NCBI GenBank assembly: GCA_009937405.1 | Contig: JAACCU010000006.1 | Location: 1 to 42,333, forward strand | DNA: 42,333 nt | Direction: 5' to 3' | Origin: Actinomycetota bacterium | Lineage (GTDB): Bacteria; Actinomycetota; Acidimicrobiia; Acidimicrobiales; Aldehydirespiratoraceae | Shown here: piece by piece, positions 2,122-33,864 of the stretch | Layout: each line of letters opens with the position of its first letter | Position numbering within the stretch: position 1 is the stretch's first letter | Notes under the pieces: model-generated | Database searches by the model: none | Told to the model about the DNA's origin: nothing | What the model saw: only the letters and a program-made list of their open reading frames with translations | Made by a program: the position numbers and the translations under genes

Positions 2122-3318
2122 ATGGCTGAAAAGATCACGATGCAAGAAGACGGCACGCTTGCTGTCCCAGACAACCCCATCATTCCGTTCATTGAAGGTG
2201 ATGGCACCGGAGTCGATATCTGGCCAGCCGCCAAGCTCGTGCTGGATGCCGCGGCACACAAGCACGGCAAGAACATCGAGTGGACGGAAGTCCTGGCCGG
2301 TGAGAAGGCCTTCAACGAGACGGGCGACTGGCTCCCGCAGGCGACCATCGACAAGTTTGAGCAGTACCTGATCGGTATCAAGGGCCCGCTGACTACACCG
2401 ATTGGCGGCGGTTTTCGCAGCCTCAACGTGGCTATCCGGCAGATCATGGATCTGTATGTCTGTCTTCGTCCGGTGCGCTGGTTCAGTGGTGTGCCCTCGC
2501 CGGTCAAGGAGCCGCAAAACGTCGACATGGTGATTTTCCGTGAGAACACCGAAGATATTTACGCCGGCATGGAGGTCGAAGCAGGCACGCCTGAGGCGCT
2601 CAAGATGATCGAGCTACTTCACGACCATTTCGGTTGGGAGATCAAGGAAGGCTCCGGTATTGGTGTAAAGCCGATCTCCAAGAACGGTTCGCAGCGCCTG
2701 CAGCGCGCATCGCTTGAGTACGCGGTCAAGAGCGGCCGCAAGCGTGTGCACTGGGTCCACAAGGGCAACATCATGAAGTTCACCGAGGGTGCCTTCCAGA
2801 AATGGGGCTACGAGCTGGTTCGCGAGGAGTTCAGCGACGTGGCCGTCGGTTGGGACGACTGTAATGGCGACCCTGGCGACAAGATTCTCGTCCAGGACGC
2901 CATCGCCGACATTGCCCTTCAGCAGGTGCTCACCCGCCCTAAGGAGTTCGACATTATTGGCACGATGAACCTCAACGGCGACTACCTATCTGACGCGTTG
3001 GCCGCTCAGGTTGGTGGCATCGGCATTGCTCCGGGCGCCAACATCAACTACGTCACCGGTCACGGCGTATTCGAGGCCACCCACGGCACGGCCCCGAAGT
3101 ATGCGGGCCAAGACAAGGTCAATCCGTCTTCGGTTTTGCTCTCCGGCGTCATGATGTTCGAGCACCTCGGTTGGAAAGAAGCAGCCGACGATATTGTCGC
3201 CGCTGTCGAGACTGCCATCGCTGACAAGGTCGTCACATACGACTTCGCTCGCCTCATGGAGGGCGCCACCGAGGTCAAGTGCTCGGAGTTCGCCTCCGCA
3301 GTCGTCGACCGTCTCTGA
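2122..3318 (+). CDS. icd: NADP-dependent isocitrate dehydrogenase (E. coli type)
   Basis: [62 protein letters not shown]. Start chosen at ATG 2122 (not TTG 2101), 7 nt after TACGAT. Confidence 0.95.
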
Positions 3319-3604
3319 CAACGCATACCTGGGGTTTATCCCCGGTGTGACTTGCAAGATCGGTTCAAGATTGTTGAGGGATCTGGGGCGGTCAGACGGG
3401 TAGTCCTAGGCCTGATCACCGCGAAGGTCGTGCTTGTAGACTCGTTGGACAGAGTTTTGCACGGCGTTGAGAATGAAGCCTTTATGGCTGTCCCGGCACG
3501 GGCTCTGCTCGAATCGGCATATTGAGTGACGTCGTGTGCCACAGGACCATGGCCGTCTGCGTGATTCCCGAGAATTCGCCTCCGGTTGGCCGGGGGCCGC
3601 CGGG

Positions 3605-3610
3605 TAGGTT
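3605..3610 (+). promoter_or_regulatory. Putative leaderless -10 box (TAGGTT) for the ABC exporter operon
   Basis: TANNNT, 6 nt before GTG 3617. Confidence 0.5.
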
Positions 3611-3616
3611 GGATCG

Positions 3617-5377
3617 GTGAGAAACCGGGGCGAGCAGATCGATCACATGTGGCGGCGCGGTGGCCGGCTCATCATGCGTTCGTTACGCGCCCATCCTCGC
3701 CTCCATGCCACCGCCATGATCGGAGCAGTGGCGTTCGTGTTCGCCTCAATCGGTGGAGCGTGGGTCCTCGGCCGAGTGACTGACGATGTGGTGGTGGCTG
3801 CGTTCGAGGATGGCAGGGTCGACGGTAGCGATGTCTGGTTGGGCATGGTGGCGCTCGTGGTGATTTCGCTGCTCCGTGGTGGCAGCGTGGTTGTTCGCCG
3901 CTGGTTTCTAGCCAAGGCTGAGCTCCGCACCCAGCGGGACTGGAGACGGTCCCTGGTTCATCACTATTTGGATGTACCGCTGCGTTTCCACCGCACACGC
4001 CCAGCGGGCGAACTTCTTGCTCACGCCGACCTTGATCTCACGAACGCCACGATGGTGCTGAAGCCGCTCGCGTTCGCTTTGAGCGTGGTGCTCCTGGTGA
4101 TCGTGGCGCTGGCCTCGCTGTTGCTGATTCACCCACTCCTTGCGTTGCTCGGCGGGGTGGTGTTTCCATTACTGGTGGTGATGAGCCAGGTCTACACCTC
4201 GCGGGTCGAGGCGCCGTCGGCTCGAGCCCAGCAACGAGTCGGCGATGTGTCGTCAGTTGCCTACGAGAGCTTCGAGGGCGCCCTCGTGGTGAAAACCCTG
4301 GGCCGGGAGAAGGCAGAGGTCGAGCGGATGAGGGAAGCATCGGCTCGTTTGCGTGACGAACGAATTCATGTCGGGCGGATGCGCGCCGTCTTCGAACCGG
4401 CGATCGATGCCCTTCCCAACGTCGGCGTCGTCTTGCTGCTTCTGGTTGGCGCCAACCTGGTTTCTCAGGGCGAGGCCACCCCCGGCGATCTCGTCCTGGC
4501 CGCCACGCTATTCGGCCTGCTTTCCACACCGTTGCGAGTGTTTGGCTTCTTCCTCGAGGAGATGCCGCGATCGGTCGTTTCGCTTGACCGCGTCGATCGG
4601 GTGATGGAGGCCGAGGCCGAGGATCGTGTTGGTAGTCGCACGCTTCCGGCCGGAGCACTCGGTCTGGTGGTGCGCGATCTCTCAGTGGTTCACGACAATC
4701 AGAGGGTCCTTCGAGATGTCGACCTTGATGTGGCGGCGGGTGAGACGATTGCCATCGTCGGCCCTACCGGGTCAGGCAAGTCGACACTTGTCGAAGCGGT
4801 AGCCGGGCTCCTGGATCGCACATCGGGCGACGTTCGGCTTGGCGATGTTTCTGTCGACGATGTTTCTGCCGAAGATTGGTCTGCTGCGGTGGCCCTGGCG
4901 TTCCAGGAGAGCTTCCTGTTTGCCGATTCCGTTCGCGAGAACGTGAGCCTCGGCATAGTGACCGATAGCGATGCACGCCATGCCCTTGTCACGGCGCAAG
5001 CCTCCACGTTTGTCGATGAGTTGGAGTCTGGCTTCGACACGGTGGTGGGAGAACGTGGCACCACGCTCTCGGGCGGTCAGCGCCAGCGTGTAGCCCTTGC
5101 TCGAGCGATCGCTCGCCGCCCCCGACTGCTGTTGCTCGACGATGCCACGTCCGCTGTGGACGCAACGGTCGAATCCCAGATCCTCGACGGATTACGAACC
5201 GATCTCGACGTCACGTTGATCGTGGTCGCTCACCGTATATCCACGATTCTGCTGGCCGATCGAGTCGTTTATCTAGACGACGGCCAGGTGATGGCTGTTG
5301 GTACGCACGACGAGCTACTCGCCCGTGCGGATTACAACGCGCTAGTAACCGCCTACGAACAGGCGGACGACGTATGA
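3617..5377 (+). CDS. ABC exporter half-transporter 1 (TMD-NBD, degenerate Walker B)
   Basis: N-terminal TM helices; Walker A GPTGSGKST, signature LSGGQ, Walker B LLLLDDATS, AHRIST. Confidence 0.93.
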   Translation: MRNRGEQIDHMWRRGGRLIMRSLRAHPRLHATAMIGAVAFVFASIGGAWVLGRVTDDVVVAAFEDGRVDGSDVWLGMVALVVISLLRGGSVVVRRWFLAKAELRTQRDWRRSLVHHYLDVPLRFHRTRPAGELLAHADLDLTNATMVLKPLAFALSVVLLVIVALASLLLIHPLLALLGGVVFPLLVVMSQVYTSRVEAPSARAQQRVGDVSSVAYESFEGALVVKTLGREKAEVERMREASARLRDERIHVGRMRAVFEPAIDALPNVGVVLLLLVGANLVSQGEATPGDLVLAATLFGLLSTPLRVFGFFLEEMPRSVVSLDRVDRVMEAEAEDRVGSRTLPAGALGLVVRDLSVVHDNQRVLRDVDLDVAAGETIAIVGPTGSGKSTLVEAVAGLLDRTSGDVRLGDVSVDDVSAEDWSAAVALAFQESFLFADSVRENVSLGIVTDSDARHALVTAQASTFVDELESGFDTVVGERGTTLSGGQRQRVALARAIARRPRLLLLDDATSAVDATVESQILDGLRTDLDVTLIVVAHRISTILLADRVVYLDDGQVMAVGTHDELLARADYNALVTAYEQADDV

Positions 5378-7209
5378 CCGCGGTCAATGAGCCCATCGTG
5401 CCGGCGGCTACCGCCGCCTCCTTGATCGATGACGACTCAGCGCCCGATATCGGGGCGTGGCAGGTTCTTCGTCGCGGTATCGCCACTTCGCCTGAGCTCA
5501 AGACCGGGCTGGCTGTGACCGTGATGCTGGCAGTGATGGCGGCCGCTGGTCGTCTCGTGATCCCAATTCTCGTGCAGCAGATTCTCGACCACGGGATCCT
5601 TGGCCAAGACGGGTACCGAGAGGGGTTTGTGGCGAAGGCTGCGATTGCTGCCATGATCACTGTTGTCGTCGTCGCGATAGCAAGCCGAATTGCATTCGTG
5701 CGGCTGGTGACGATGACCGAGTCGGTTCTGCTTGACCTGCGGGTGCGAGTGTTCGAACACATCCACAAGCTCAGCCTCGCTGACCACACAGAGTCCCGAA
5801 GCGGTGTGCTCGTGGCTCGAGTTACCTCCGACATCGAAACACTCGTGCGCTTTACGCAGTGGGGAATGATCAGCTGGATCATCGACACAGCGATCATCAT
5901 CGGCACGCTCGTGGTGATGGCGGTGTACAGCTGGCAGTTGACTCTGGTGGCTGTTGCCGTGCACCTGCCGTTGTTACCGTTCTTGCGGTGGGTTCAGGAA
6001 AAGCAGTTCGTGGCGTACGGACTTGTCCGCACTCGTGTGGCGGAGACACTTGGGCACACTGCCGAAGCAGTGAGTGGTGCTCCCGTGATCCGGGCGTACG
6101 ACTACGGCGACCCGGTTCGAGCTCGGCTTGACGACTCGATCGATCGTCAGTACCAACCACAGCTTCGGAGCTCAATCTGGTTCGCGGGTCTTTTGCCGGT
6201 GGTGGATTTCGTTTCGTCGGTTTCGCTTGCTGTCGCCATGGGCATCGGTGTCTGGTGGCGGGCGGATCTTGGCGTCGAGGTGGGCGAACTTGTCGCCTTT
6301 ATTTTCCTTGTCAACCTGATCCTGCAGCCGATCTCCCAGCTTGGTGAGGTGCTCGACCAAACCCAGACAGCGCTGGCTGGCTGGTGGAAGATCTTGCGGG
6401 TTCTGGACGTGCCAATCGCGGTTGTCGAACCTGAGGATGGTCAAGAATTGCCGACGGGACCGCTCGGCGTAGAGCTCGAGGACGTGTCGTTTCGTTATCG
6501 AACGGGTCCGATGGTGTTGCGCAATATTTCCTTGACGATTCCTCCGGAGACCAATGTTGCCGTCGTTGGTGAAACGGGTTCCGGAAAGACCACGACTGCG
6601 CGTCTCTTTGCCCGGCTCGCTGATCCGATCGGTGGCGTTGTCCGCATCGGGGGGATCGATCTTCGTGACATTCACCCCGACTCCCGCCACCGTTCGATCC
6701 GCATGGTGCCCCAGGACGGCTTCTTGTTCGATCGATCGGTCCGCGACAATATTCGGTTTGGTCGTGGTGATGCCACCGATGATGACGTCGAGCTTTCGAT
6801 CGACGAACTGGGCTTGCGCCAATGGGTGGAGTCACTGCCCGAGGGACTCGACACTGTTGTTGGCGAGCGAGGTGGCCGTCTTTCTGTTGGTGAACGCCAG
6901 CTCGTCGCTTTGGCCCGTGCCCAGGTGGCTGACCCCGGTCTACTGCTGCTCGATGAGGCTACGTCAGCGGTCGATCCCGAGACGGAAGAAGCATTGGCTG
7001 CGGCCCTTGGCCGCCTCGCTGCTGGTCGAACAACGATCTCTGTTGCCCACCGCCTGTCGACCGCGGAACGTGCCGATCTTGTGCTGGTCTTCGACGCTGG
7101 GAAACTTGTCCAGCAGGGTTCGCATTCGGAGCTGGTCGAGATCCCGGGGATCTACCGTGGGCTCTACGAATCCTGGATCGGTAACACCCGCTCGTCGGCC
7201 ATCGACTGA
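5374..7209 (+). CDS. ABC exporter half-transporter 2 (TMD-NBD, degenerate signature motif)
   Basis: ATGA overlap with the upstream gene; Walker A GETGSGKTT, signature LSVGE, Walker B LLLLDEATS, AHRLST. Confidence 0.93.
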   Translation: MTAVNEPIVPAATAASLIDDDSAPDIGAWQVLRRGIATSPELKTGLAVTVMLAVMAAAGRLVIPILVQQILDHGILGQDGYREGFVAKAAIAAMITVVVVAIASRIAFVRLVTMTESVLLDLRVRVFEHIHKLSLADHTESRSGVLVARVTSDIETLVRFTQWGMISWIIDTAIIIGTLVVMAVYSWQLTLVAVAVHLPLLPFLRWVQEKQFVAYGLVRTRVAETLGHTAEAVSGAPVIRAYDYGDPVRARLDDSIDRQYQPQLRSSIWFAGLLPVVDFVSSVSLAVAMGIGVWWRADLGVEVGELVAFIFLVNLILQPISQLGEVLDQTQTALAGWWKILRVLDVPIAVVEPEDGQELPTGPLGVELEDVSFRYRTGPMVLRNISLTIPPETNVAVVGETGSGKTTTARLFARLADPIGGVVRIGGIDLRDIHPDSRHRSIRMVPQDGFLFDRSVRDNIRFGRGDATDDDVELSIDELGLRQWVESLPEGLDTVVGERGGRLSVGERQLVALARAQVADPGLLLLDEATSAVDPETEEALAAALGRLAAGRTTISVAHRLSTAERADLVLVFDAGKLVQQGSHSELVEIPGIYRGLYESWIGNTRSSAID

Positions 7210-8366
7210 GCAAGCCATAGGCGGTTCAGGATTAGGGCAAACAGGGCGAGGACGACTGGTGCAAGTGGGCTCATCCCAAGAGGCTCTTTGAAGAGCTGGA
7301 TCAAACCGACGACCCAGATCGCCATTGTGGTCCGAACGTCGATGAGTTGACGGTCGAGCATGATCAGCACCGCGAACAAGGCGAGGCTCGAGTCGTAGTA
7401 GATGGTATGGAAGCCAAGAAGCATCAGGCCTGCCGCGGTGACGGCGAAGCGGCTGTCGAGGTCAAGCCGCTGCTTCCCCCAGAGCCATGACAGGGCGAGG
7501 CCGATACCGACGGAGATTGCGCCGCCGACGATCATCGCCATGGTGGAGTCGGCGCCGAGAACGGCGTGGAGGAAGCCCACGGGCGCGATTTCGTTGGCGG
7601 CGTTGACCTCAGCATCGGCTTTAAGAAGAGGTCGGACGCCAGTGATCCAGGTTGAGATCCAACCCGGACCCGCCATGGCGGCGTTAATGGCGTAGACGAT
7701 GGTGGCACCGATGCACGCAGTGCCGACTGCCCGCCAGTGGCGGCCGAGGAACAGCAACCCGAGCATCGGTAGGGCGTACTGGGGCCGAAAAAGGAGGAGG
7801 GCAACAGCGACGCCGGCCCATTCTTCGTGGTCCTCGGCGAGGGCTCGCCAGATTGCTGCCAGAAGGAGAAGGGTGAGGGCTGTGTTTTGCCCGCCGCTCG
7901 TGCCAACGAAGATCGGATAGGCGGTGGCGGTGGCACCGAGGATGAGAGAGAACCAGCGATCTAGGAGGCTGATCATGGGACGAATCAATATGAGCGCCCC
8001 AACGAGCGCCGCCACCATGAGTGCCGTGTGGATGACATACGCAGTGCGATAGGGGAGGCCGGAGAACGCCGAGTATGCGCCGGCTACGTAGGGGGCGTAG
8101 GGGTACATGATGAACCCGTCTTCGCCGCCGAGTAGGTCGATCTGAGCGGCGGCTTGAACCGCTGGTTCGTAGAGGCCATCGATGTTGCCTTCGGCGACGA
8201 TGGTGCCGGCTGAGTAGAAGGCAGGGAAGTCGCCTCCGACGCGACCAGTGGCAGTGTCTGATCCGCTGCCTGCGGTGATGACGATTACGAATGCGGCCGC
8301 TATTGCGATGAGGATCAGCCGTGGATATAGGGTGAGTCGCCGCTGCCAGGCTGCATCAAGTCTCAT
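7164..8366 (-). CDS. Multi-pass membrane protein, DUF2029/GT87-like
   Basis: Many hydrophobic helices; DFPAFYSAGTIV and LLLFRPQYALPMLGLL resemble GT87/DUF2029 proteins. Confidence 0.75.
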   Translation of the reverse strand: MRLDAAWQRRLTLYPRLILIAIAAAFVIVITAGSGSDTATGRVGGDFPAFYSAGTIVAEGNIDGLYEPAVQAAAQIDLLGGEDGFIMYPYAPYVAGAYSAFSGLPYRTAYVIHTALMVAALVGALILIRPMISLLDRWFSLILGATATAYPIFVGTSGGQNTALTLLLLAAIWRALAEDHEEWAGVAVALLLFRPQYALPMLGLLFLGRHWRAVGTACIGATIVYAINAAMAGPGWISTWITGVRPLLKADAEVNAANEIAPVGFLHAVLGADSTMAMIVGGAISVGIGLALSWLWGKQRLDLDSRFAVTAAGLMLLGFHTIYYDSSLALFAVLIMLDRQLIDVRTTMAIWVVGLIQLFKEPLGMSPLAPVVLALFALILNRLWLAQSMADERVLPIQDS

Positions 8367-8410
8367 TGCGGTGACCAGGGTACCAATCGACTGACGGCCA
8401 GGCGGCTGAG

Positions 8411-9643
8411 CTAGGTCTGGGCCGCTTTGCTGCTGTTGCGATGCCGTTTTACGGCGTACATGGCTTCATCAGCGGTGGCCAGCAGTTGCTCAGCGGTTAG
8501 TCGACCGACTGCGACAGATGTACCGATACTCACATCGATCTTGATGACCAGCCCATCGACATCGATGGGCATGATAATGGCATCGCGGATACGGGTCGCG
8601 ATGGATTTGGCCAGCACCAGACCTGAGTGGGGGAGTGCGACAACAAACTCGTCGCCGCCGAGACGACCGACCAGATCATCGGGACGGATCACTTGTTCGA
8701 TTCGGTGAGCAACTTCAATGAGAACTTCGTCACCGGTCGCATGACCGAACTGGTCGTTGACCGGTTTGAAGCCATCGAGGTCACAGAAGAGAACCACAAT
8801 TTCGTGGTCGGAAGAGACGCGGGCCATATTGTCGAGTTCGACTAGCAGCGCCCGTCGATTGAGAACGCCGGTAAGAGCGTCGTGATCGGCCATGTGACGA
8901 AGTTTGTTCTGCGTCGCTTTGTGGTCGCTGATGTCTGTACCGCTCACGACGAAGCCATTGATGAGCGGATCGGTTCGTAGATCTGTGACCGTCAGATCTA
9001 GCACGATCTGGTGTCCATCGGCGTGGACGAACGTGTATGCGGCTGAGAACGATTTGTCGATCGATGTGAGGGCGTCGCGAAAAGCAGATTGGTCGGAGGC
9101 GTGGACGAATGCGAAGAGTTCGTTACCGGAGACAACGCCGAGGTCGTAACCCAAGAGGCGGGTGAGTTCGGCATTTGCCGAAGTAACGCAGCCGTCCTCG
9201 TCGAGCTTGATTAGTAGCGAGGTGGCGTGGTGGACGAGCGCTCGGAGTAAATCAGTGTGACCGGATCCGAACTCGAGGCCTTGACGGTCAGCCGTGTCAC
9301 GGATCCCGACGATGATGCTGGGGTCGCCGCCATCTTCTGCATCGATGGACCGGCCGCGAATCTCGCAATGACGCCATCGGTTCTCGGCGTCTTGGATTCG
9401 CACGTCGATGAGACGGCCGACTTCTTTTCCGGTGACGGAAGTGAGCGCTGTGGCGGTGAGGGCATGGTCGTCGGGATGGAGGAGTTCGAAGACTGAGATC
9501 CCCGTTAACTCCGATGCCTCCCTGCCTGCGAAATGGGCAGCTGCGTGATTGACCCACTGGATATCCCCGTTGCGGTGAACGACCACCACGGGATCAGGAA
9601 GCATCTCGAGAACCCGGGCGAGGTCCTTGGGGTGTGTGGGCAT
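8411..9643 (-). CDS. PAS-PAS-GGDEF diguanylate cyclase
   Basis: Two PAS-like segments; [18 protein letters not shown]-site five residues before intact GGDEF. Confidence 0.92.
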
Positions 9644-19774: not shown

Positions 19775-19843
19775 GCTCCCCGGGTGACGGTGCCACGCCT
19801 GGGAGTGCGCTTGGGCCGTCTGGGATGGGCTGGTGGCCGCGTG

Positions 19844-19849
19844 TAGGGT
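19844..19849 (+). promoter_or_regulatory. Putative leaderless -10 box (TAGGGT) for the MoxR gene
   Basis: TANNNT, 7 nt before ATG 19857. Confidence 0.5.
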
Positions 19850-19856
19850 CGCCGCC

Positions 19857-21269
19857 ATGTCGAGACCTGAGACACTTAGTGCCCTGCGCGACAGCGGGTG
19901 GGAGTCGATCCCAATCCGTGAGGAAATCCGCCGCAACGCCGTCGCCAAGATCCGAAACGACGAGCCGATGGTTCCGTCGATCCTCGGCTACGAGAATACG
20001 GTTAACCCGCAGCTAGAAAACGCGCTTCTTGCCGGGCACGACATTGTTTTCCTGGGTGAGCGTGGACAGGCCAAGACCCGGATCATCCGCGGTCTGACCG
20101 CCATGCTCGACGAGTGGATGCCGATCGTGGCCGGCTCTGAGATCAATGATGATCCGTATGCGCCGGTTTCTCGTCATGGCCGCGACCTCGTCGCGGAGAT
20201 GGGTGACGACACGCCGATCGCGTGGGTCCACCGAGACGATCGCTACAGCGAGAAACTCGCCACCCCGGATACGTCGATTGCTGACCTCATCGGCGAAGTC
20301 GACCCTATCCGTGTTGCCGAAGGCCGCTATCTCAGCGATGAACTCACACTGCATTACGGATTGGTGCCGCGCACCAATCGTGGCATCTTCGCGATGAACG
20401 AATTACCTGACCTCGCCGAGCGGATCCAGGTCGGTCTACTCAACGTGCTTGAGGAACGCGATGTGCAGATCCGCGGTCACAAGGTTCGCCTTCCGCTCGA
20501 TGTGATCCTGGTCGCTTCAGCCAACCCAGAGGACTACACGAACCGGGGCCGGTTGATCACCCCGCTGAAGGACCGCTTCGGTTCGCAAATCCGCACCCAT
20601 TACCCGCTTGACATCGATACCGAGGTCGCGATCATTGAGCAGGAGGCCGACTTGTCGGTCAGCGCCGATCTCGACCTCACGGTTCCGGCCTTCATGACTG
20701 AGATCGTGGCAACGGTCACTCATGCGGCACGGGCCAGCCAGCACATCTCTCAACGCTCTGGAGTGTCGGTCCGTTTGTCGATTGCGAACGAAGAGATTCT
20801 TGTGGCCAACGCGGTGCGCCGTTCGCTTCGGTCGGGTTCGTCGCGGGTTGTGCCGCGCATCGTCGATCTCGAAGCACTGCCGGCATCGACCTCCGGCAAG
20901 GTTGAGATCGAGACTCTCGAGGAGGGCCGCGACGGCGAGATTCTCGCCAGTCTGGTCAGCAAGGCGGTGCTGGCCGTGTTCAAGGACCATGTTCCCCCTG
21001 ACACCCATCGTGGCGTCGTCGATGCCTTCGAAGAGGATCTCGTGGTCGATATTGGCGAGGACGTCACCGACGATGCCTACGTCCGACTACTGAAGCGGAT
21101 CCCAGCGCTCGAAGCGCCGGTTCAAGCTTTGTTGGCCAGCGAAGACGACGCCGAGTCTCCGGCAATGATCGCAAGCGCCTGCGAATTGGTGCTCGAAGGG
21201 CTGCACCTGGCCAAGCGTCTCAACAAGGATGCTGCTGCAGGTCGCGCCCAGTTCCGCGGCCGCGGCTGA
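19857..21269 (+). CDS. MoxR/Mg-chelatase-like AAA+ ATPase
   Basis: FLGERGQAKTRIIRG Walker A, GIFAMNELPDLAERIQVGLLNVLEERDVQIRG, LVASANPEDYTNRGRLITPLKDRFGSQI. Confidence 0.92.
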   Translation: MSRPETLSALRDSGWESIPIREEIRRNAVAKIRNDEPMVPSILGYENTVNPQLENALLAGHDIVFLGERGQAKTRIIRGLTAMLDEWMPIVAGSEINDDPYAPVSRHGRDLVAEMGDDTPIAWVHRDDRYSEKLATPDTSIADLIGEVDPIRVAEGRYLSDELTLHYGLVPRTNRGIFAMNELPDLAERIQVGLLNVLEERDVQIRGHKVRLPLDVILVASANPEDYTNRGRLITPLKDRFGSQIRTHYPLDIDTEVAIIEQEADLSVSADLDLTVPAFMTEIVATVTHAARASQHISQRSGVSVRLSIANEEILVANAVRRSLRSGSSRVVPRIVDLEALPASTSGKVEIETLEEGRDGEILASLVSKAVLAVFKDHVPPDTHRGVVDAFEEDLVVDIGEDVTDDAYVRLLKRIPALEAPVQALLASEDDAESPAMIASACELVLEGLHLAKRLNKDAAAGRAQFRGRG

Positions 21270-24528: not shown

Positions 24529-26565
24529 ATGGCCTTCCGCCGCGGTAACCGCACTCGTCGCGAGGTGCCTCACTTCAGCTATTCGCGCTGGGATGGCACC
24601 CAGACGGGGTTTGACGTTGATGCCGACCATCTGTTTTCCGAAATGGCTGATGATCTGCTTTACCACGGCGATGTCAACAGCGCGCTTCGCCAGATGATGC
24701 AGGGCGGAATGACCGATCGTGATGGCCGTAAAATGGAGGGCATCCGCGACATGATGGATCGGCTCCGTGAACGGCGGCGCGACATTCTTGAAAACCACGA
24801 CCTCGGCGGCGTCTTCGACGATATCGCCAACGAACTCCGCGAGTTGGTCGACGACGAACGCAAGTCGTTGGAAGAGATGGTCGACCAGGCCGGTCAATCC
24901 GGTGATGATCGTCGCCAGGAACTGGCCAGCGATACGTCGGCCATGAAGAACATGGAGCTCTACATGCTGCCGCCCGACCTTGCCGGTCAGGTGAAGGGCT
25001 TGCAGAGCTATGACTTCGAGTCTGACGAAGCCCAGCAGCGATTCAACGAGTTGATCGACAAACTGCGTGAGCAGATCATGCAGCAACAGCTTGATCAGAT
25101 GGCCGAGGGCATCAACGAGATGCCGCCCGAAGAGATGCAGCGGGTCAAGGACATGCTCGCCGAACTCAACCACGTGCTTGAGCAGCGTGCCGCAGGAGAG
25201 GAGCCCGACTTCGGCGGGTTCATGGCCCGCTTCGGCGACCTTTTTCCGGAGAACCCGCAGACGCTCGACGAACTGCTCGAGATCATGGCGCAGCGCATGG
25301 CGCAGATGCAGCAGATGATGAACTCGATGTCGCCGGAGCAGCGTCAGCAACTCCAGGAACTCAGCAATCAGCTGATGGAGGACATGGACCTTCAGTTCCA
25401 GATGAGCCAACTCTCCGATAATTTGCGTGAGCAGTTCCCGCAGATGGGCTGGGGCCAGTCCTATGACTTTGAGGGCATCGACCCACTCGACATGCCGCAG
25501 GCCATGGAGATGATGGGCGAACTTGGCGACATCGATCAGCTCGACAATCTGCTCCGCGGGGCCACCAACCCCGGGGCCTTGGCCGAGGTCGACATCGATC
25601 GAGCCCGAGATCTGCTGGGCGAGGAGTCGGCTGAGAGCCTTGAGCGCATGGCGGAGATCGCCCGAATGCTCGAGGAGTCGGGTCTGATCGAAAACAAGGA
25701 AGGCCGTTACGAGCTAAGGCCACGGGCGATCCGACGCATGGGCAACGGTGCCTTGGATGAGATCTTCAAGCGCATGTCGCCTGACATGCTCGGCAAGCAT
25801 CAGCTCGAGCGAACCGGGCAGGGTCATGAGCGAGATTTTGACACCAAGCCCTACGAGTACGGCGATCGTTTCAACCTTCATATCGAGAAGACGCTGCGCA
25901 ACGCGGTGGCTCGGACTGGTGGCGGTATTCCTATCCAGCTTCATGCCGATGACTTCGAGATCGAACGCACTGAGCAGCTGACCCGGTCAAGCACGGTTTT
26001 GATGCTTGACGTCTCGATGTCGATGGCCATGCGAGACAACTTTTTGCCGGCTAAGAAGGTCACGATGGCGCTTCACTCGCTGATCTCGAGCCAGTACCCC
26101 CGTGATTTCCTGGGCATGGTCTCGTTCAGCGAAGTTGCTCGCGAGTTCAACGCGGCAACGTTGCCCGAACTGTCGTGGGACTATGTCTACGGCACCAACA
26201 TGCAGCACGCGTTCCAGGTCGCTCGTCAGATGCTCTCGAAGCAGACTGGCACCAAGCAGATCATCATGATCACTGATGGTGAACCGACAGCCCACATCTC
26301 CAAGAGCGGGCAGCCGTACTTCAATTATCCACCATCTCAAGAGACGGTGGATCTCACGTTGGCCGAGGTGGCGAAAGCCACCCGTGAAGACATCCGGATC
26401 AACACATTCGTTCTCGACGTGACGCACTATCTCCAAAACTTTGTGGAGCAGATTTCCCGAATGAACGGCGGGCGGGCGTTCTTCACCACTAACGAGGATC
26501 TTGGCGATTATCTTCTGATGGACTTTGTCGATCAGAAACAAAGCGTGCTGCGGGGCCGAAGGTAG
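24529..26565 (+). CDS. von Willebrand factor A-domain protein
   Basis: VLMLDVSMSMAMRDN (DxSxS MIDAS) and IIMITDGEPT; long Met/Gln/Glu-rich N-terminal region. Confidence 0.9.
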   Translation: MAFRRGNRTRREVPHFSYSRWDGTQTGFDVDADHLFSEMADDLLYHGDVNSALRQMMQGGMTDRDGRKMEGIRDMMDRLRERRRDILENHDLGGVFDDIANELRELVDDERKSLEEMVDQAGQSGDDRRQELASDTSAMKNMELYMLPPDLAGQVKGLQSYDFESDEAQQRFNELIDKLREQIMQQQLDQMAEGINEMPPEEMQRVKDMLAELNHVLEQRAAGEEPDFGGFMARFGDLFPENPQTLDELLEIMAQRMAQMQQMMNSMSPEQRQQLQELSNQLMEDMDLQFQMSQLSDNLREQFPQMGWGQSYDFEGIDPLDMPQAMEMMGELGDIDQLDNLLRGATNPGALAEVDIDRARDLLGEESAESLERMAEIARMLEESGLIENKEGRYELRPRAIRRMGNGALDEIFKRMSPDMLGKHQLERTGQGHERDFDTKPYEYGDRFNLHIEKTLRNAVARTGGGIPIQLHADDFEIERTEQLTRSSTVLMLDVSMSMAMRDNFLPAKKVTMALHSLISSQYPRDFLGMVSFSEVAREFNAATLPELSWDYVYGTNMQHAFQVARQMLSKQTGTKQIIMITDGEPTAHISKSGQPYFNYPPSQETVDLTLAEVAKATREDIRINTFVLDVTHYLQNFVEQISRMNGGRAFFTTNEDLGDYLLMDFVDQKQSVLRGRR

Positions 26566-26577
26566 GGATTAGACGGA

Positions 26578-29500
26578 ATGACGCCTCAATATCGCCGCCA
26601 ATCAGCCGATAAACGGGATGTGAGAAGCTTTGGATCGCGTCGGCATGAGCCGGAAGAATATTCGTCGGCCTGGCACCGAGAAGCGCTGGCGTTAATTGAG
26701 AAGTCGATAGAACGCCTCGAAAATCTCGATAGCGCCGACTTCGAGGCAGAGTTGACCAGCATCCTTCAGGAGTTCTCCGAAACAATCGGGGTCACTGCCA
26801 TGGTCGAATGCAATGGCACGGTCGGCGACGGTGTGCTCTGGTTTGATCCAGAGTCGACCAGCATCGACGAACTTCGTGCCTGGGTCGAAATGTTTGACGC
26901 CCTCCCGCAGGTCAACGCTATGACAACGCAGACGTCAGCCAACGGTCGCACGGCCGCCATCGTGCCGAACCCGCCTGGCTCGTTCGCTCGCTTCATGATG
27001 ATCCTCGCCTCCGAGAAGGACGGCATGACGGCGGACGCGGCCGGCCTCTGCGAATTGATGTCGCTGGCGGTGTCTTCGGCTCGCTGGCGTGCCGGTTCCT
27101 CTCGTGAGCCCGCCCCGGGGCGCGGCTTTTCAGAGCTTGTGACCTCAATCCTGAGAATCGAAGGCAATGGTGGCGATGATTCTGAGGCGCTTCGAGAAAT
27201 CTGCGAACTTGCGCGATCGTCCTTTGCCCTCGGCGTAGTCTCCTACTGGAGTGCTGACGGATCCATGTTCACGCTTCTGACGAAGGGTGTGAGGACTGCT
27301 GCCGGGTCCATCGACGACAATGCTCCCTCTGTCGAAGTTGATCTGGGCGCCAGCCGCGAACTGCTTGAAGCTGGGCACATGCTCGTCCCGCTGAGTTTCT
27401 TCGGTTCGAAGAACACGTTAGATCACCCCGCTGATGCGGTGGCGTTAATCGTGCCGACCTATGGGCCAGGTGGCGTGGAAGGCGTCGTCTCCTTGAGTAG
27501 CCCCAGTCATCGAGAGTGGAGCGACGTTGAGTTGAGGGTTGTGCATGCGATCGTGCCAAGCATCCAAAAGGTAGCGCGACGCGTTCACCCCCCTGTTAAC
27601 TCGTCGACTCTCGATGCTTTTAATCATGCGACGCGGCGTATTGGTGTGGCGGCCATGCAGATGGACTTCCAGGACGAGGAGGCCTTCCTAGGCGAGGTCA
27701 CGTCCACCATGATCGAGCTCTTCGGGCTCCGTGCCGCATCTGTATGGAAACAACGCGACGGCGAGATCGAGCGAACATATGCACGAGACGCTAATGGGCA
27801 CAAGAAAACCGGTGAGCGGCGGGTAAAGATTGATCTTGAATGGGTCGGCGGCATGTACGACCGTGGCTATGGGTTCGCAGACAAGGTCATATTCGCGGAA
27901 TCTGTAGACGTTCACATTGAGAATGGGCAGATACTGACCGTCCCGCTCACCGCGGACCGCAATGACCTCTGTTTGCTTGCCTTCGTCGGCGGAGGGCGCC
28001 AAGAATGGGGAAGCGTCGAAATTGATGGTGTAGTAGCGCTGGCGGCGGTTGTAGCGCAGACTCTCGTTCGGTTCGCGATAGGGCGGGCGGCTGCCGAACG
28101 CCTCCGGCTTGAGACGCTCTCGCACGAGATCGCCAACATGGCCGTCGCGGCGCAACGCGAAGACATCGATGACGTTTACCGCAAAATATTGGTTCGTATC
28201 ACCGACTTCTTTGGACTTTCCGAAGCGCAAGCATGGAGTTACCTAGACAACGGAGCCATCCTTCGTTCGGTGTACCGGCCCGATGGTCGAGGGCAGGTTG
28301 AGCCCGGGTTCTCGGCTCCAAACCCTATGCACATGCCTGAAAGAGGGTGGGCGGTCATTCGTCTGGGGCAACTCACCTACCCGTATCGACTGGACCCGCC
28401 CGATACGAAAATCCTTATGGTGTCGTATCGCCCTGGGCTTGCACCGCATGGCGTGTTGGTGTTCGTGGATCCACAAAATCGCGTCTGGAACGACGACGAG
28501 ATCAGCTATATGCAAGGCATTGCCGCCACGATTGGGCAACTCTGGGACCGAATGACGCTGGTCGAAGTCCTTAGTAGCCGCCTGCTCGAGCATCAGCGTC
28601 GGTCACAACAGATCCTGCACCAAATCACGGCGACCTTTATCGACTCGGCGACGCTCAACGTCAGCGAGGCAATGGTGGCTTCTTTGGAGCAAGTTCGCTC
28701 GTTCATCGATTGCGATTCGCTTGCTTTGTTCGAACTCGACCATGTAACGCTCCAAATCGAGTGCTCGCACGAGTCCACTCGCGACGGCCAGATGTTGCAG
28801 TCGCAGTACGCCCCGCTCAACCGTGACGACCCCGTCATTGCACGCGTTCTCGACCCTGCAGATGGCCCGAATTGGTCTATCGGTGAGCTATTCGGAACAG
28901 ATCACAACAGCGTTAACCTGCACGTCGCTCCGGTTGTGGCTGGTCGAGACATTCTTGCGCTGTCGGCGCTAGACCTCCAAGGCAACTCGTTGGATGAAGA
29001 GTCCGCTCGGATGTTGGCCTCGTTCACGGACATTCTCTCCCAGTTTCGCGCTCGCCTCGTGGTCGAGACAAATGTTCGTCTGAGGACTGAGGGCGACCGT
29101 CTGCTGAGAGAGGTTGCTAGCGATTTTGTAGCCCGTTCTGTTGAGAACGCCGACGAGGGCATCTATGAAGCCATGGAGAGAGTCGGTCAGCTTCATGCGT
29201 GTCGCTCAGTGGGACTGTGGGAGTTTAACGATGAGACAGGTGCAACCCGGCGGTTGGTTTGGATGGCCGACGGGATCGACGATTCTGAAGCCTCACCCGG
29301 CCGAGTAGAGGTTGACAATCCTGCGCTTAAATTTGCTAAGACCATCGAAACTGCGAAGTGGTTCGAGTCGCCTGCCGAACATTGGGGGGACTACACCGAT
29401 ACGGCGCGATTTCTTTGTGTCGCCCCGATACGCGAGGATGGGGAGGTCGTCGGCTGCTTCTCGAGCGAGACGTTTAGAGAGTCTGTCTCGACCGAGATGT

Positions 29501-31764
29501 GGAACGAGTCTGAGAGGTTGGGCGATCTCACCGTTCAGGAAGATCTGTTCGCTTCGCTCTCCGCGCTGGTCAGACAACTCTGGAAGCGCCTCGACGCCGA
29601 CCGGGCGCTGGGCATCGAGTTGGCGATGGCCGATCTTCTTCGCCAGTTGGCCACGTTCCTCACCGCTATCCCGGCCGAGGATTTTGGTGGCGACGAGCGG
29701 GCCCTTGGTTGGCTTGCCGACAAACTCGGCCTTGAGCACCTCTCTTTGTGGACGGGGGTTCTCGACCATGCGAACGTCACTGTGAGCCTGGCCGGCGCCT
29801 ATAGCTCAACGGGAGCGGTGATTTCAGATGATTTGAAACGCTTCGTTATCGGCATCGATGACCTCGAACTCAGCAGGTTGAAAAGCCCCGGAGTATGGGC
29901 GCCCGGTGAGGCTTGGTCCCGAGCCCAAGCCATGATCGAGTCGTTGGGCTATCGGGGTGACCGCCAAGCCGGGCTGGCTCGAAGCGAACAGTCCGAATCG
30001 GACAGCAACTATTTTATCTTTTCTCGCGACGGGTTCGAACCAATCACCGATTTCACGGTGTCGGTCCTCGATTCTGCGTTGGCGCTTGTGAGTCAGTATC
30101 TGGCTCGAGCGAGAGCGGAGCGTTCGCTGTTGACCTCGTTCGCTGCCGCGCCGATCGCTGTCAGTTTCCGTACCATGGAAATGACGTTCATCTCCTGCAA
30201 CGCCGCCTATGAACAACTCACCGGCCGCACGGCGAAGGAGATGGTGGGGACAGGCCTCGACCGTGTGGTGGTCCCCGAAGAGGTCGGCCCCATTCTCATC
30301 GAACTCGATCGTGACCTGGCCTCCGGCAAGATAGAGCGAGAGTCGAATTTCAAACGGCCTGACGGAACGACGCTTTGGGTCGATGTTCTGTCGACGGTGA
30401 CCACGGTCCCAGGTCAGACTGAGCCAGTCGTGATCACCTACGCCCAGGACAGGACCGAGCGGCGCCGCAGCCGGCAGCTCCTCGAATACCAGGCAAGCCA
30501 CGACGAACTGACCGGTCTGCCCAATCGCCGAGCCTTCGTCGACCAGACCAACACTGAACTCGCTCGGTCCAGCAAGTGCGCCGTGATCATGCTCGACCTC
30601 GACCGCTTCAAAGACGTCAACGATTTGCTCGGTCATAGTGCTGGCGATCAATTGCTGATCGCGTGTTCTGACCGCATCCGGCTTTCGCTGCGCCCGGGCG
30701 ATGCTGTAGCCCGGCTCGGCGGCGACGAATTCGCGGTCTTGTTGCGAGGGCCCGTCGATCCTGGTTCTGCCGGAGTCGTCGCAGAACGGTTGTTGCGTCT
30801 GCTGCGTGAGCCTGTCCGTATCGACAACGAAGAGGTACGCCCGTCCGCCAGTGTTGGCATCGCCATCCGTGAAGAGGGCGACAAGGTTGAGGATCTCCTA
30901 CGCTACGCCGACGCCGCCATGTACGAGGCAAAGGGTCTCGGCCGTGACCAGTGGGTTTGCTTCGATCAGCGGATGCGTGAAGCAGCCATTGTGCGCCTCC
31001 AGACGGAAACCGATCTTGGCCGAGCGGTCGAAAACGGCCAACTCGAAGTGTACTACCAGCCTGAATTCGATCTGAGAACAGGCGCCATCGTCGGCGCTGA
31101 AGCACTCCTCCGCTGGATCCACCCGGAACAGGGGGTCGTGCCCGCCAGCGGTTTCCTCAGTATCGCTGAGGAAACCGGACTCATTGTCAGCCTTGGCCGC
31201 TGGGCACTCGGTCAAGCCACTATGCAAGCCGCGGAGTGGCTCGCTCAGGGTCACGACATGGTTATACGTGTCAACATTTCTGCTCGCCAGCTCCGCAATG
31301 CATTGGTCGGGGAGGTGCAGGAGGCGCTCGCCGCAGCGAACCTGCCCACCCACCGACTATGCCTGGAGTTGACCGAGACCACGATCATGGATGATGTGGA
31401 CGGGTCCGCTCAGGTTCTCCAGCAGCTCCGTAAAATGGGCGTGAAGATCGCCGTCGACGATTTCGGCACCGGATACTCGTCCCTCCCATCTCTGAAGCGG
31501 TTACCTCTCGACATCTTGAAGATTGATCGAGCAATCGTCGCTGGTGTCAGCGTCGACCTCGACAACACCGACATCATGCGCTCAATTGTTGGGCTTGCGG
31601 AGATCTTGGGCCTTGACGTTGTGGCCGAAGGCATCGAGAATGAGAGCCAATTAGCTGAGCTTGTTCGGCTCGGTTGCCACCGTGGACAGGGCTTCCATGC
31701 GGGCCGCCCCGCTCCGGCTAACGAGATCGACCTGCTTCTCGGGATGGCCGGTCGGTTGGAATAG
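26578..31764 (+). CDS. 1728-aa multi-GAF/PAS/GGDEF/EAL signalling protein
   Basis: Repeated GAF-like modules; PAS; RPGD I-site plus RLGGDEF (30712-30732); EAL (31099-31107) with NISARQL, ELTETTI, DDFGTGYSSL, LKIDR, EGIE and GQGF conserved. Confidence 0.93.
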   Translation: MTPQYRRQSADKRDVRSFGSRRHEPEEYSSAWHREALALIEKSIERLENLDSADFEAELTSILQEFSETIGVTAMVECNGTVGDGVLWFDPESTSIDELRAWVEMFDALPQVNAMTTQTSANGRTAAIVPNPPGSFARFMMILASEKDGMTADAAGLCELMSLAVSSARWRAGSSREPAPGRGFSELVTSILRIEGNGGDDSEALREICELARSSFALGVVSYWSADGSMFTLLTKGVRTAAGSIDDNAPSVEVDLGASRELLEAGHMLVPLSFFGSKNTLDHPADAVALIVPTYGPGGVEGVVSLSSPSHREWSDVELRVVHAIVPSIQKVARRVHPPVNSSTLDAFNHATRRIGVAAMQMDFQDEEAFLGEVTSTMIELFGLRAASVWKQRDGEIERTYARDANGHKKTGERRVKIDLEWVGGMYDRGYGFADKVIFAESVDVHIENGQILTVPLTADRNDLCLLAFVGGGRQEWGSVEIDGVVALAAVVAQTLVRFAIGRAAAERLRLETLSHEIANMAVAAQREDIDDVYRKILVRITDFFGLSEAQAWSYLDNGAILRSVYRPDGRGQVEPGFSAPNPMHMPERGWAVIRLGQLTYPYRLDPPDTKILMVSYRPGLAPHGVLVFVDPQNRVWNDDEISYMQGIAATIGQLWDRMTLVEVLSSRLLEHQRRSQQILHQITATFIDSATLNVSEAMVASLEQVRSFIDCDSLALFELDHVTLQIECSHESTRDGQMLQSQYAPLNRDDPVIARVLDPADGPNWSIGELFGTDHNSVNLHVAPVVAGRDILALSALDLQGNSLDEESARMLASFTDILSQFRARLVVETNVRLRTEGDRLLREVASDFVARSVENADEGIYEAMERVGQLHACRSVGLWEFNDETGATRRLVWMADGIDDSEASPGRVEVDNPALKFAKTIETAKWFESPAEHWGDYTDTARFLCVAPIREDGEVVGCFSSETFRESVSTEMWNESERLGDLTVQEDLFASLSALVRQLWKRLDADRALGIELAMADLLRQLATFLTAIPAEDFGGDERALGWLADKLGLEHLSLWTGVLDHANVTVSLAGAYSSTGAVISDDLKRFVIGIDDLELSRLKSPGVWAPGEAWSRAQAMIESLGYRGDRQAGLARSEQSESDSNYFIFSRDGFEPITDFTVSVLDSALALVSQYLARARAERSLLTSFAAAPIAVSFRTMEMTFISCNAAYEQLTGRTAKEMVGTGLDRVVVPEEVGPILIELDRDLASGKIERESNFKRPDGTTLWVDVLSTVTTVPGQTEPVVITYAQDRTERRRSRQLLEYQASHDELTGLPNRRAFVDQTNTELARSSKCAVIMLDLDRFKDVNDLLGHSAGDQLLIACSDRIRLSLRPGDAVARLGGDEFAVLLRGPVDPGSAGVVAERLLRLLREPVRIDNEEVRPSASVGIAIREEGDKVEDLLRYADAAMYEAKGLGRDQWVCFDQRMREAAIVRLQTETDLGRAVENGQLEVYYQPEFDLRTGAIVGAEALLRWIHPEQGVVPASGFLSIAEETGLIVSLGRWALGQATMQAAEWLAQGHDMVIRVNISARQLRNALVGEVQEALAAANLPTHRLCLELTETTIMDDVDGSAQVLQQLRKMGVKIAVDDFGTGYSSLPSLKRLPLDILKIDRAIVAGVSVDLDNTDIMRSIVGLAEILGLDVVAEGIENESQLAELVRLGCHRGQGFHAGRPAPANEIDLLLGMAGRLE

Positions 31765-32506: not shown

Positions 32507-33028
32507 ATGGCTGACAAGGCAGGCCGAATCCCAGAACCCGGTGTCCCGACATGGGACGGGATCGCCCGCGATCACCTCGGATTTATGTATTCCGTCGCCT
32601 ATCGGCTGGCGGGGAACCAATCCGACGCCGAAGACGTTGTGCAAGAAGCGCTCCTCCGCGTGAAACGTGGTTTGGAGAGCTACACCCCCGGCTCTCTTCA
32701 GGGATGGCTTGCCCGCATCGTGACGAACGTATTCCTCGACGAAACCCGGCGCAGAAAGCGCCGGCCCCAGACTCACCTCCCGGATGATCCGGATCGTGTG
32801 CTCGCCGGCGCGCCTGGCGCCGATGAAGCACTGGCGATGGAAACGTTGCCTGATCATCTCCAGAGAGCGATCGCGTCGCTCCCCGAAGAATTCCGTACCG
32901 CAGTCGTACTTTGCGATGTTGCCGGGCTCAGCTACGCAGAGATCGCCGAACAGCGCGGTGTCCCCGTCGGGACTGTGCGCTCCCGAATCCATCGAGGAAG
33001 GCTCCAACTTCGGGAGGTGTTGTCGTGA
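32507..33028 (+). CDS. ECF sigma factor, SigE-like
   Basis: YRLAGNQSDAEDVVQEALLRV (region 2) and LPEEFRTAVVLCDVAGLSYAEIAEQRGVPVGTVRSRIHRGR (region 4). Confidence 0.95.
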   Translation: MADKAGRIPEPGVPTWDGIARDHLGFMYSVAYRLAGNQSDAEDVVQEALLRVKRGLESYTPGSLQGWLARIVTNVFLDETRRRKRRPQTHLPDDPDRVLAGAPGADEALAMETLPDHLQRAIASLPEEFRTAVVLCDVAGLSYAEIAEQRGVPVGTVRSRIHRGRLQLREVLS

Positions 33029-33864
33029 ACATTGACGACGACCGCCTGAGCGCCTACCTCGACGACGAGCTCGCCTCCGCTGAACGGGACGAGGTCGATA
33101 CCGCGCTCGCTTCCGATCCGGCCGTGCAATCGCTGCTCGCCGAACTCGCCGAGATGAAGGCGGTGTTCGGTAGTTCGATGATCGAGCCTTCAAGAACGTC
33201 CATCAATCGCATGATCGGGGCCGTCGAACGAGCTGACGAGCCAAATCCGTTGGCCCCCTCATCAGTTGTCGACAGCGCCTCTCGCCGACGGGTGCCGACC
33301 TTCGCCGCTATCGCAGCGTCAGTCGTGATCATCGCCAGCGTGGTTGGTGGCGTCGGCGGGACCGCCTCGATCCCTGCGATTGGTGACCTTGTCGCCCGTC
33401 ACGAAGCAGCAGCATCAGTTCTTGACTCGGGGGCAGAGTTGGCGATGAACGACGATGCGATGCACGAGATGATGGACGAAGGTCCATCAATACCGGACGT
33501 GCTTGATCTGACCTACGCCGATCAAGATGGCTCGCTCGTGCACGCTGTCTTCGAATCGCCCGACGGTGTACTGCTCTCGCTCTTCCGCCAAGACGGTGAC
33601 GCTGACCTCAATGAGATCGGCACCGAAATGGGGACCGGGGAGATCATCGACATGGGTGGCCATGAGATGTGGGCCAGCGATATGGGTGAAACCCATGTCG
33701 CCGTCATCGACGGCGACGGTTTCACCTGGACCATCATTGGTAATGCCGAGGCCGATCACATGATGATCATGATGTCGGACCTGCCGGGGCGCTCGCCCAG
33801 TATTGGTGAGCGCATCGGCGACGTTGCCGACGCGATCATCCGTCCTTTCCGTCTCGGAAACTGA
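33025..33864 (+). CDS. Putative membrane anti-sigma factor, cysteine-free
   Basis: GTGA overlap with the sigma stop; LSAYLDDELASAERDEVDTALASDPAVQSLLAEL anti-sigma-like N-terminus; one TM segment (FAAIAASVVIIASVVGGVGG). Confidence 0.82.
   Translation: MNIDDDRLSAYLDDELASAERDEVDTALASDPAVQSLLAELAEMKAVFGSSMIEPSRTSINRMIGAVERADEPNPLAPSSVVDSASRRRVPTFAAIAASVVIIASVVGGVGGTASIPAIGDLVARHEAAASVLDSGAELAMNDDAMHEMMDEGPSIPDVLDLTYADQDGSLVHAVFESPDGVLLSLFRQDGDADLNEIGTEMGTGEIIDMGGHEMWASDMGETHVAVIDGDGFTWTIIGNAEADHMMIMMSDLPGRSPSIGERIGDVADAIIRPFRLGN

Follow-up and report, generated by a model that had tools for sequence, protein, structure and literature searches.

Among actinobacterial c-di-GMP enzymes, a GAF sensor placed on a GGDEF-EAL pair is known from MSDGC-1 and MtbDGC (Rv1354c), which are reported to be bifunctional in vitro (PMC2994820). 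A much longer row of GAF domains is present in PtxD (NpF2164) of Nostoc punctiforme, a seven-GAF cyanobacteriochrome which controls phototaxis and in which at least six of the GAF domains bind bilin (PMC5812497). Sensor and output domains can be connected by conserved stretches of helix, which have been described as signalling helix linkers (PMC1592074).

The window analysed here, a stretch of 42,333 nucleotides from an uncultured member of the Acidimicrobiales (family Aldehydirespiratoraceae), encodes a protein which resembles both types. Like MSDGC-1 and MtbDGC, it is an actinobacterial GGDEF-EAL protein with a GAF sensor, although those proteins possess one GAF domain in about 620 residues (numbering to 623, PMC2994820), compared with seven GAF modules and a PAS domain in 1728 residues here. 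As in PtxD, a single signalling protein carries seven GAF domains; it differs from PtxD by its GGDEF-EAL output and in that no invariant cysteine was seen. Among solved structures, the output half is most closely related to the GGDEF-EAL proteins RbdA and MucR (PDB 4rnh, 5m3c), whose chains contain nothing like the GAF array, and the output halves alone were compared. The phytochrome-linked diguanylyl cyclase of Idiomarina sp. A28L (PDB 5llw), which was among the top Foldseek matches of the array, also carries its sensors in line with GGDEF, but it is a bilin-binding PAS-GAF-PHY protein without a tandem GAF array and without EAL. A very long sensor array was noticed in another genome of the same class (G341:C28, L176, positions 2857–8553, minus strand), where a protein of 1899 amino acids contains ten PAS stretches, one GAF, GGDEF and EAL; its repeats are of the PAS and not of the GAF type. 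A literature search, which was far from complete, did not turn up a publication describing a GGDEF-EAL protein with seven GAF domains. The array is real and conserved, its parts are familiar, and long sensor arrays as such are already known.

Domain architecture and evidence for seven GAF modules

The coding region is one unbroken open reading frame, in which seven GAF modules (M1–M7, together residues 32–1180) are followed by PAS, GGDEF and EAL domains (Table 1). The seven positions, about 500 nt apart, at which equivalent linker helices had been proposed from the nucleotide sequence correspond to residues 32, 185, 347, 514, 680, 842 and 1019, with spacings of 153, 162, 167, 166, 162 and 177 amino acids. 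The source assembly is fragmented (381 contigs). An assembly artefact as the source of the array was rejected, because seven further complete orthologs exist.

Table 1. Positions in the window of the array gene, its predicted domains and the upstream neighbour gene.
Feature	Position (nt)	Strand	Basis
Open reading frame, 1728 aa	26578..31764	+	single ORF; full-length orthologs
M1, GAF module, residues 32-178	26671..27111	+	profile-profile with M3/M5/M6; AF2 topology
M2, GAF module, residues 180-338	27115..27591	+	Pfam GAF 203-325, profile-profile, AF2
M3, GAF module, residues 342-506	27601..28095	+	Pfam GAF_2/GAF_3, profile-profile, AF2
M4, GAF module, residues 508-672	28099..28593	+	hhalign to M3 E 1e-31; AF2
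M5, GAF module, residues 674-834	28597..29079	+	AF2 of M5 alone; Foldseek
M6, GAF module, residues 836-1010	29083..29607	+	hhalign to M5 E 4e-16; AF2
M7, GAF module, residues 1013-1180	29614..30117	+	hhalign to M5 E 9e-9; AF2
PAS domain, residues 1194-1297	30157..30468	+	Pfam PAS_3/PAS_4/PAS_9
GGDEF domain, residues 1306-1457	30493..30948	+	Pfam 9e-42
EAL domain, residues 1479-1711, complete catalytic set	31012..31710	+	Pfam 2e-67
vWA-domain protein, neighbour gene	24529..26565	+	Pfam VWA_2

The Pfam GAF cut-off was exceeded for the window protein as a whole and was reached by 11 of 12 array members. The best stretches in the window protein were weak matches, located solely at about residues 203–325 (M2) and 366–496 (M3); none fell into M1 or M4–M7, and M1, the most diverged module, was without any Pfam match. 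Sensitive self-BLAST of the single sequence detected no repeats within the protein, so that the repetition is invisible at the plain sequence level. One profile per module was then built from the orthologs and compared pairwise by hhalign, with the PAS, GGDEF and EAL segments as controls. All seven profiles aligned end to end, with about 10–19% identity, and formed a connected graph; E values were 1e-31 for M3-M4, 5e-27 for M2-M3, 4e-24 for M2-M4, 4e-16 for M5-M6, 9e-9 for M5-M7 and 2e-7 for M1-M3, and none of the control segments aligned to any module profile. The direct pairs M1-M2, M1-M7 and M6-M7 were weak or absent, and M1 and M7 are therefore connected mainly via M3 and M5.

An AlphaFold model of the array, computed from an alignment of 12 rows, contained seven complete units (mean pLDDT 76.4), each with the order helix-helix-sheet-helix, and long helices between units at residues 316–361, 479–524, 639–689, 807–852, 984–1030 and 1158–1184. 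The arrangement of the units relative to each other was predicted without confidence and is not reliable, since the pTM was 0.38. The fold search covered M5 and the whole array. M5 modelled alone reached a pLDDT of 90.9, and its best Foldseek matches in the PDB were GAF or GAF-containing structures (TMq 0.52–0.74). In these models the modules thus show the predicted GAF fold, i.e., N-terminal helices, an antiparallel sheet and a C-terminal helix. With the whole array, multi-domain phytochromes and the phytochrome-linked diguanylyl cyclase ranked first, and a structural resemblance to PDE2A, of the cNMP-binding tandem GAF class (PDE2/CyaB2 type), was also apparent; at the sequence level, the array matched no PDB entry.

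The original prediction of about seven GAF-like modules on one PAS-GGDEF-EAL protein is borne out by the profile-profile comparison, the seven-unit model and the Foldseek result for M5, although a domain search by Pfam would have counted M2 and M3 only. Likewise, the repeat expected from a self-comparison of the protein was missed by self-BLAST, but ortholog profiles linked all seven modules.

In the output half, the PAS domain directly precedes GGDEF (PAS_4, residues 1194–1297, E 6e-6, above the curated cut-off). The GGDEF motif is found at residues 1381–1385 (nt 30718–30732) and the I-site RPGD at residues 1372–1375 (nt 30691–30702); the EAL catalytic residues E1508, N1566, E1597, D1627, D1628, K1648, E1684 and Q1704 are present. 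All three sets were conserved in nine of nine aligned proteins, in agreement with the earlier view that the output domains look intact. Both catalytic motif sets are intact as read from the alignment and the enzyme activities are predicted from them, although intactness of motifs does not prove both activities.

Conservation, module order and distribution

Identities to the window protein were 17–67% for the modules, 64–83% for GGDEF and 63–71% for EAL; outside the genus, the modules showed 17–39% compared with 63–74% for the outputs. The modules thus evolve fast and the enzyme domains slowly, with the sensor cores as the fastest-evolving part of the protein. Of the inter-module linker positions, 13% were conserved at a level of ≥85%, versus 8% for the cores. 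Measured from the last helix of one module to the second helix of the next, the helical segments are 65–67 residues long with few exceptions among modules and orthologs, and core lengths vary by up to 17 residues. Exceptions were an extension of five residues between M4 and M5 in the window protein and in L039, and a shortening by four between M3 and M4 in L040, neither corresponding to a heptad. Indels affected 5 of 404 linker residues and 31 of 682 core residues (Fisher p 0.0026); when core helices and strands alone were considered (11 of 335), the difference was suggestive only (p 0.07), and both p-values are rough, since related sequences are not independent.

Complete seven-module orthologs were found in seven further genomes, which represent three genera (G001–G003, which belong to the genus of the window genome, G012, G010, G022 and G032), and a further genome (G036) has both ends of the gene on separate contigs. 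The order of modules is the same in the eight complete proteins. With held-out profiles, every module of the window protein picked its positional counterpart; in more distant proteins, M2–M4 were sometimes confused with one another. In the module tree, modules clustered by position and not by genome, and the seven position labels required six changes, which is the minimum. M1, M4, M6 and M7 each formed a single group with strong support and M2 one with weaker support; M3 and M5 were not recovered as single groups, and M2–M4 together constituted one group (93/95). A recent tandem duplication was thus rejected, and from the clustering by position it follows that the array existed before these genera separated and that its modules have escaped homogenisation; it is old and of fixed order in related genera.

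The number of modules is variable at this locus. A fourth genus (G011, G023) has six modules beside the vWA gene; M1 is missing, because the gene begins just before M2. In G011 the vWA stop codon lies less than 20 nt upstream of the array gene, which leaves no room for M1; in G023 the upstream flank is cut by a contig end. A fifth genus (G009) has four modules at the same locus beside the vWA gene, scoring best as M1, M3/M4, M5 and M7. M2–M4 may have a single ancestral module, perhaps one like the second of G009, which was unplaced beside M2–M4 in the module tree; the places of G009 and L046 in the output-domain tree were not settled.

Two further loci contain frame-broken remnants with large internal deletions, located between the vWA and ECF genes. 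One (G027:C10, L054) retains the N-terminal part of M1, followed by late GGDEF-EAL in another frame, and the other (G071:C186, L120) retains fragments of the N-terminus, of M2 and of the EAL end. At 31 other vWA loci of the family, no module or GGDEF-EAL reading frame was present in downstream stretches of 1.7–9.1 kb. These remnants and absences, together with the fast divergence of the modules, could suggest that the array is only weakly constrained, drifts and is disappearing from the family. Such a decaying gene is very improbable, however, considering that eight genomes have intact reading frames of some 1700 codons in which the catalytic motifs are complete, and that module order and linker length are fixed.

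Altogether the array is confined to five of ten genera among 51 genomes of the family, and a sample of 248 genomes of the order contained only shorter relatives with open frames of at most 1116 amino acids. The designation "unusual", which had been given to such an array, would appear justified to this extent, although PtxD with its seven GAF domains and the ten-PAS protein of the same class were precedents for long arrays. No relative was detected in the public genome contigs scanned with the array. A class-wide scan with Pfam GAF_2 gives no frequency of arrays, since it returned mostly single matches and the model misses most modules of the window protein. A paralog of 1572 amino acids with GGDEF-EAL and perhaps five or six diverged similar modules was noticed at another locus (G017:C84, L137, 10214–14932, minus strand), and paralogs of 1231–1266 amino acids occur in G001, G002 and G012.

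Candidate sensing residues and a proposed model of signal transmission

The modules were not found to have any ligand motif in common. No cysteine was invariant across the orthologs, the best one being C729 in M5 (9 of 11), and a conserved bilin-binding cysteine was thus lacking among them. Few non-linker residues are invariant, namely H267 (M2) and E732 (M5), and several tryptophans are invariant in the array orthologs. This pattern argues against a bilin-binding array of the cyanobacteriochrome or phytochrome type, which was rejected for want of an invariant cysteine. A cluster in M5, C729-x-(H/C)731-E732-x-T734 (nt 28762–28779), reads CxC in roughly every second ortholog and has E732 in all; residues 729–734 might possibly form a metal or redox site.

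The original prediction went further and suggested a multi-ligand integrator. On this reading, most of the seven modules would each bind their own small molecule, with the inputs summed at GGDEF-EAL. Seven positionally distinct modules have been kept since before several genera diverged, and this long retention suggests non-redundant roles; there are also module-specific invariant residues in M2 (H267) and M5 (E732, T734). On the other hand, a common ligand signature and an invariant cysteine are absent, the cores are the part that diverges most outside the genus, invariant residues beyond the linkers are few, and the module number changes, with six (M1 missing in G011/G023) or four (G009). 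The integrator is thus to be considered as a possibility and not as a finding, since the sequence data name no ligand, and we regard it as unlikely.

The reading which we prefer, with a probability of about 60%, is a c-di-GMP enzyme with an old seven-GAF array of fixed order, a dimeric helical spine and one or a few sensing modules. It starts from features which were observed directly, i.e., the conservation and fixed order of seven GAF-like modules, the intact catalytic motifs and the near-constant length of the linkers. The enzyme would probably be located in the cytosol and its chain would dimerise in parallel; many of the phytochrome-type proteins that headed the Foldseek ranking of the array are parallel dimers. 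The spine would be formed by the last helix of each module as it continues into the initial helices of the following one, and the linkers are likened to the signalling helix (PMC1592074) by description. A ligand or partner at one or a few modules, with M2 and M5 as the best candidates, could change the geometry of the spine, and this change could, via the PAS domain, shift the balance between synthesis at the GGDEF site and hydrolysis at the EAL site; the direction of control and the dominant activity, like dimerisation, sensing and location, are parts of the model that we infer. The other modules may be mostly spacers, dimerising struts or degenerate sensors.

A more specific form of this model is rather doubtful. 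It takes the array as a stacked GAF rod, in which the length of the spine is nearly constant across genera, the cores vary and modules are gained or lost at one locus; the rod could then change its length in either direction and still transmit the signal, and M2 (H267) and/or M5 (CxC-E-x-T in many orthologs) would sense possibly a metal or redox signal.

If the preferred reading is true, nature provides versions of different length at one genomic position, with seven, six or four modules, besides decayed copies. It could then be asked how far a signal travels along stacked GAF modules, and whether the number of modules tunes a c-di-GMP enzyme. Otherwise, the protein would be an unusually long sensor assembled from known parts, in an order of actinobacteria that has received little study, the Acidimicrobiales.

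Genomic neighbourhood

On the same strand, 12 nt separate the end of the vWA gene from the array gene, and the vWA gene was also directly upstream in the array-bearing genomes whose upstream flank was covered. The two genes are probably co-transcribed. The array might be mainly a length-setting, dimerising stalk or a dock for a partner such as the adjacent vWA protein, without sensing of small molecules; the nearly constant linker length, the degenerate GAF modules, mostly missed by Pfam, and the neighbouring, likely co-transcribed vWA gene would be consistent with this. However, the vWA gene is far more conserved than the array, occurs in 47 of the 51 genomes of the family, often without the array, and is therefore independent of it; any functional link between the two proteins is putative. 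Furthermore, the length of the array is not fixed across genera, because the module number varies, and a specific site is hinted at by the invariance of H267 and E732. A mere scaffold is thus quite unlikely.

Downstream genes for an ECF sigma factor, an anti-sigma-like protein, ROK and PPK1 are largely common to the array-bearing genomes. The first two lie in overlapping frames at positions 32507–33864 (plus strand), the anti-sigma match of the second being weak, with a zf-HC2 zinc finger just under the cut-off. Upstream, a MoxR/Mg-chelatase-like AAA gene (19833–21269, plus strand) and the vWA gene are reminiscent of MoxR-vWA pairs, although GH1-like, MaoC-like and TetR genes separate them. 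A second GGDEF gene, coding for 410 amino acids with one or more PAS regions and GGDEF, is located at positions 8411–9643 on the minus strand.
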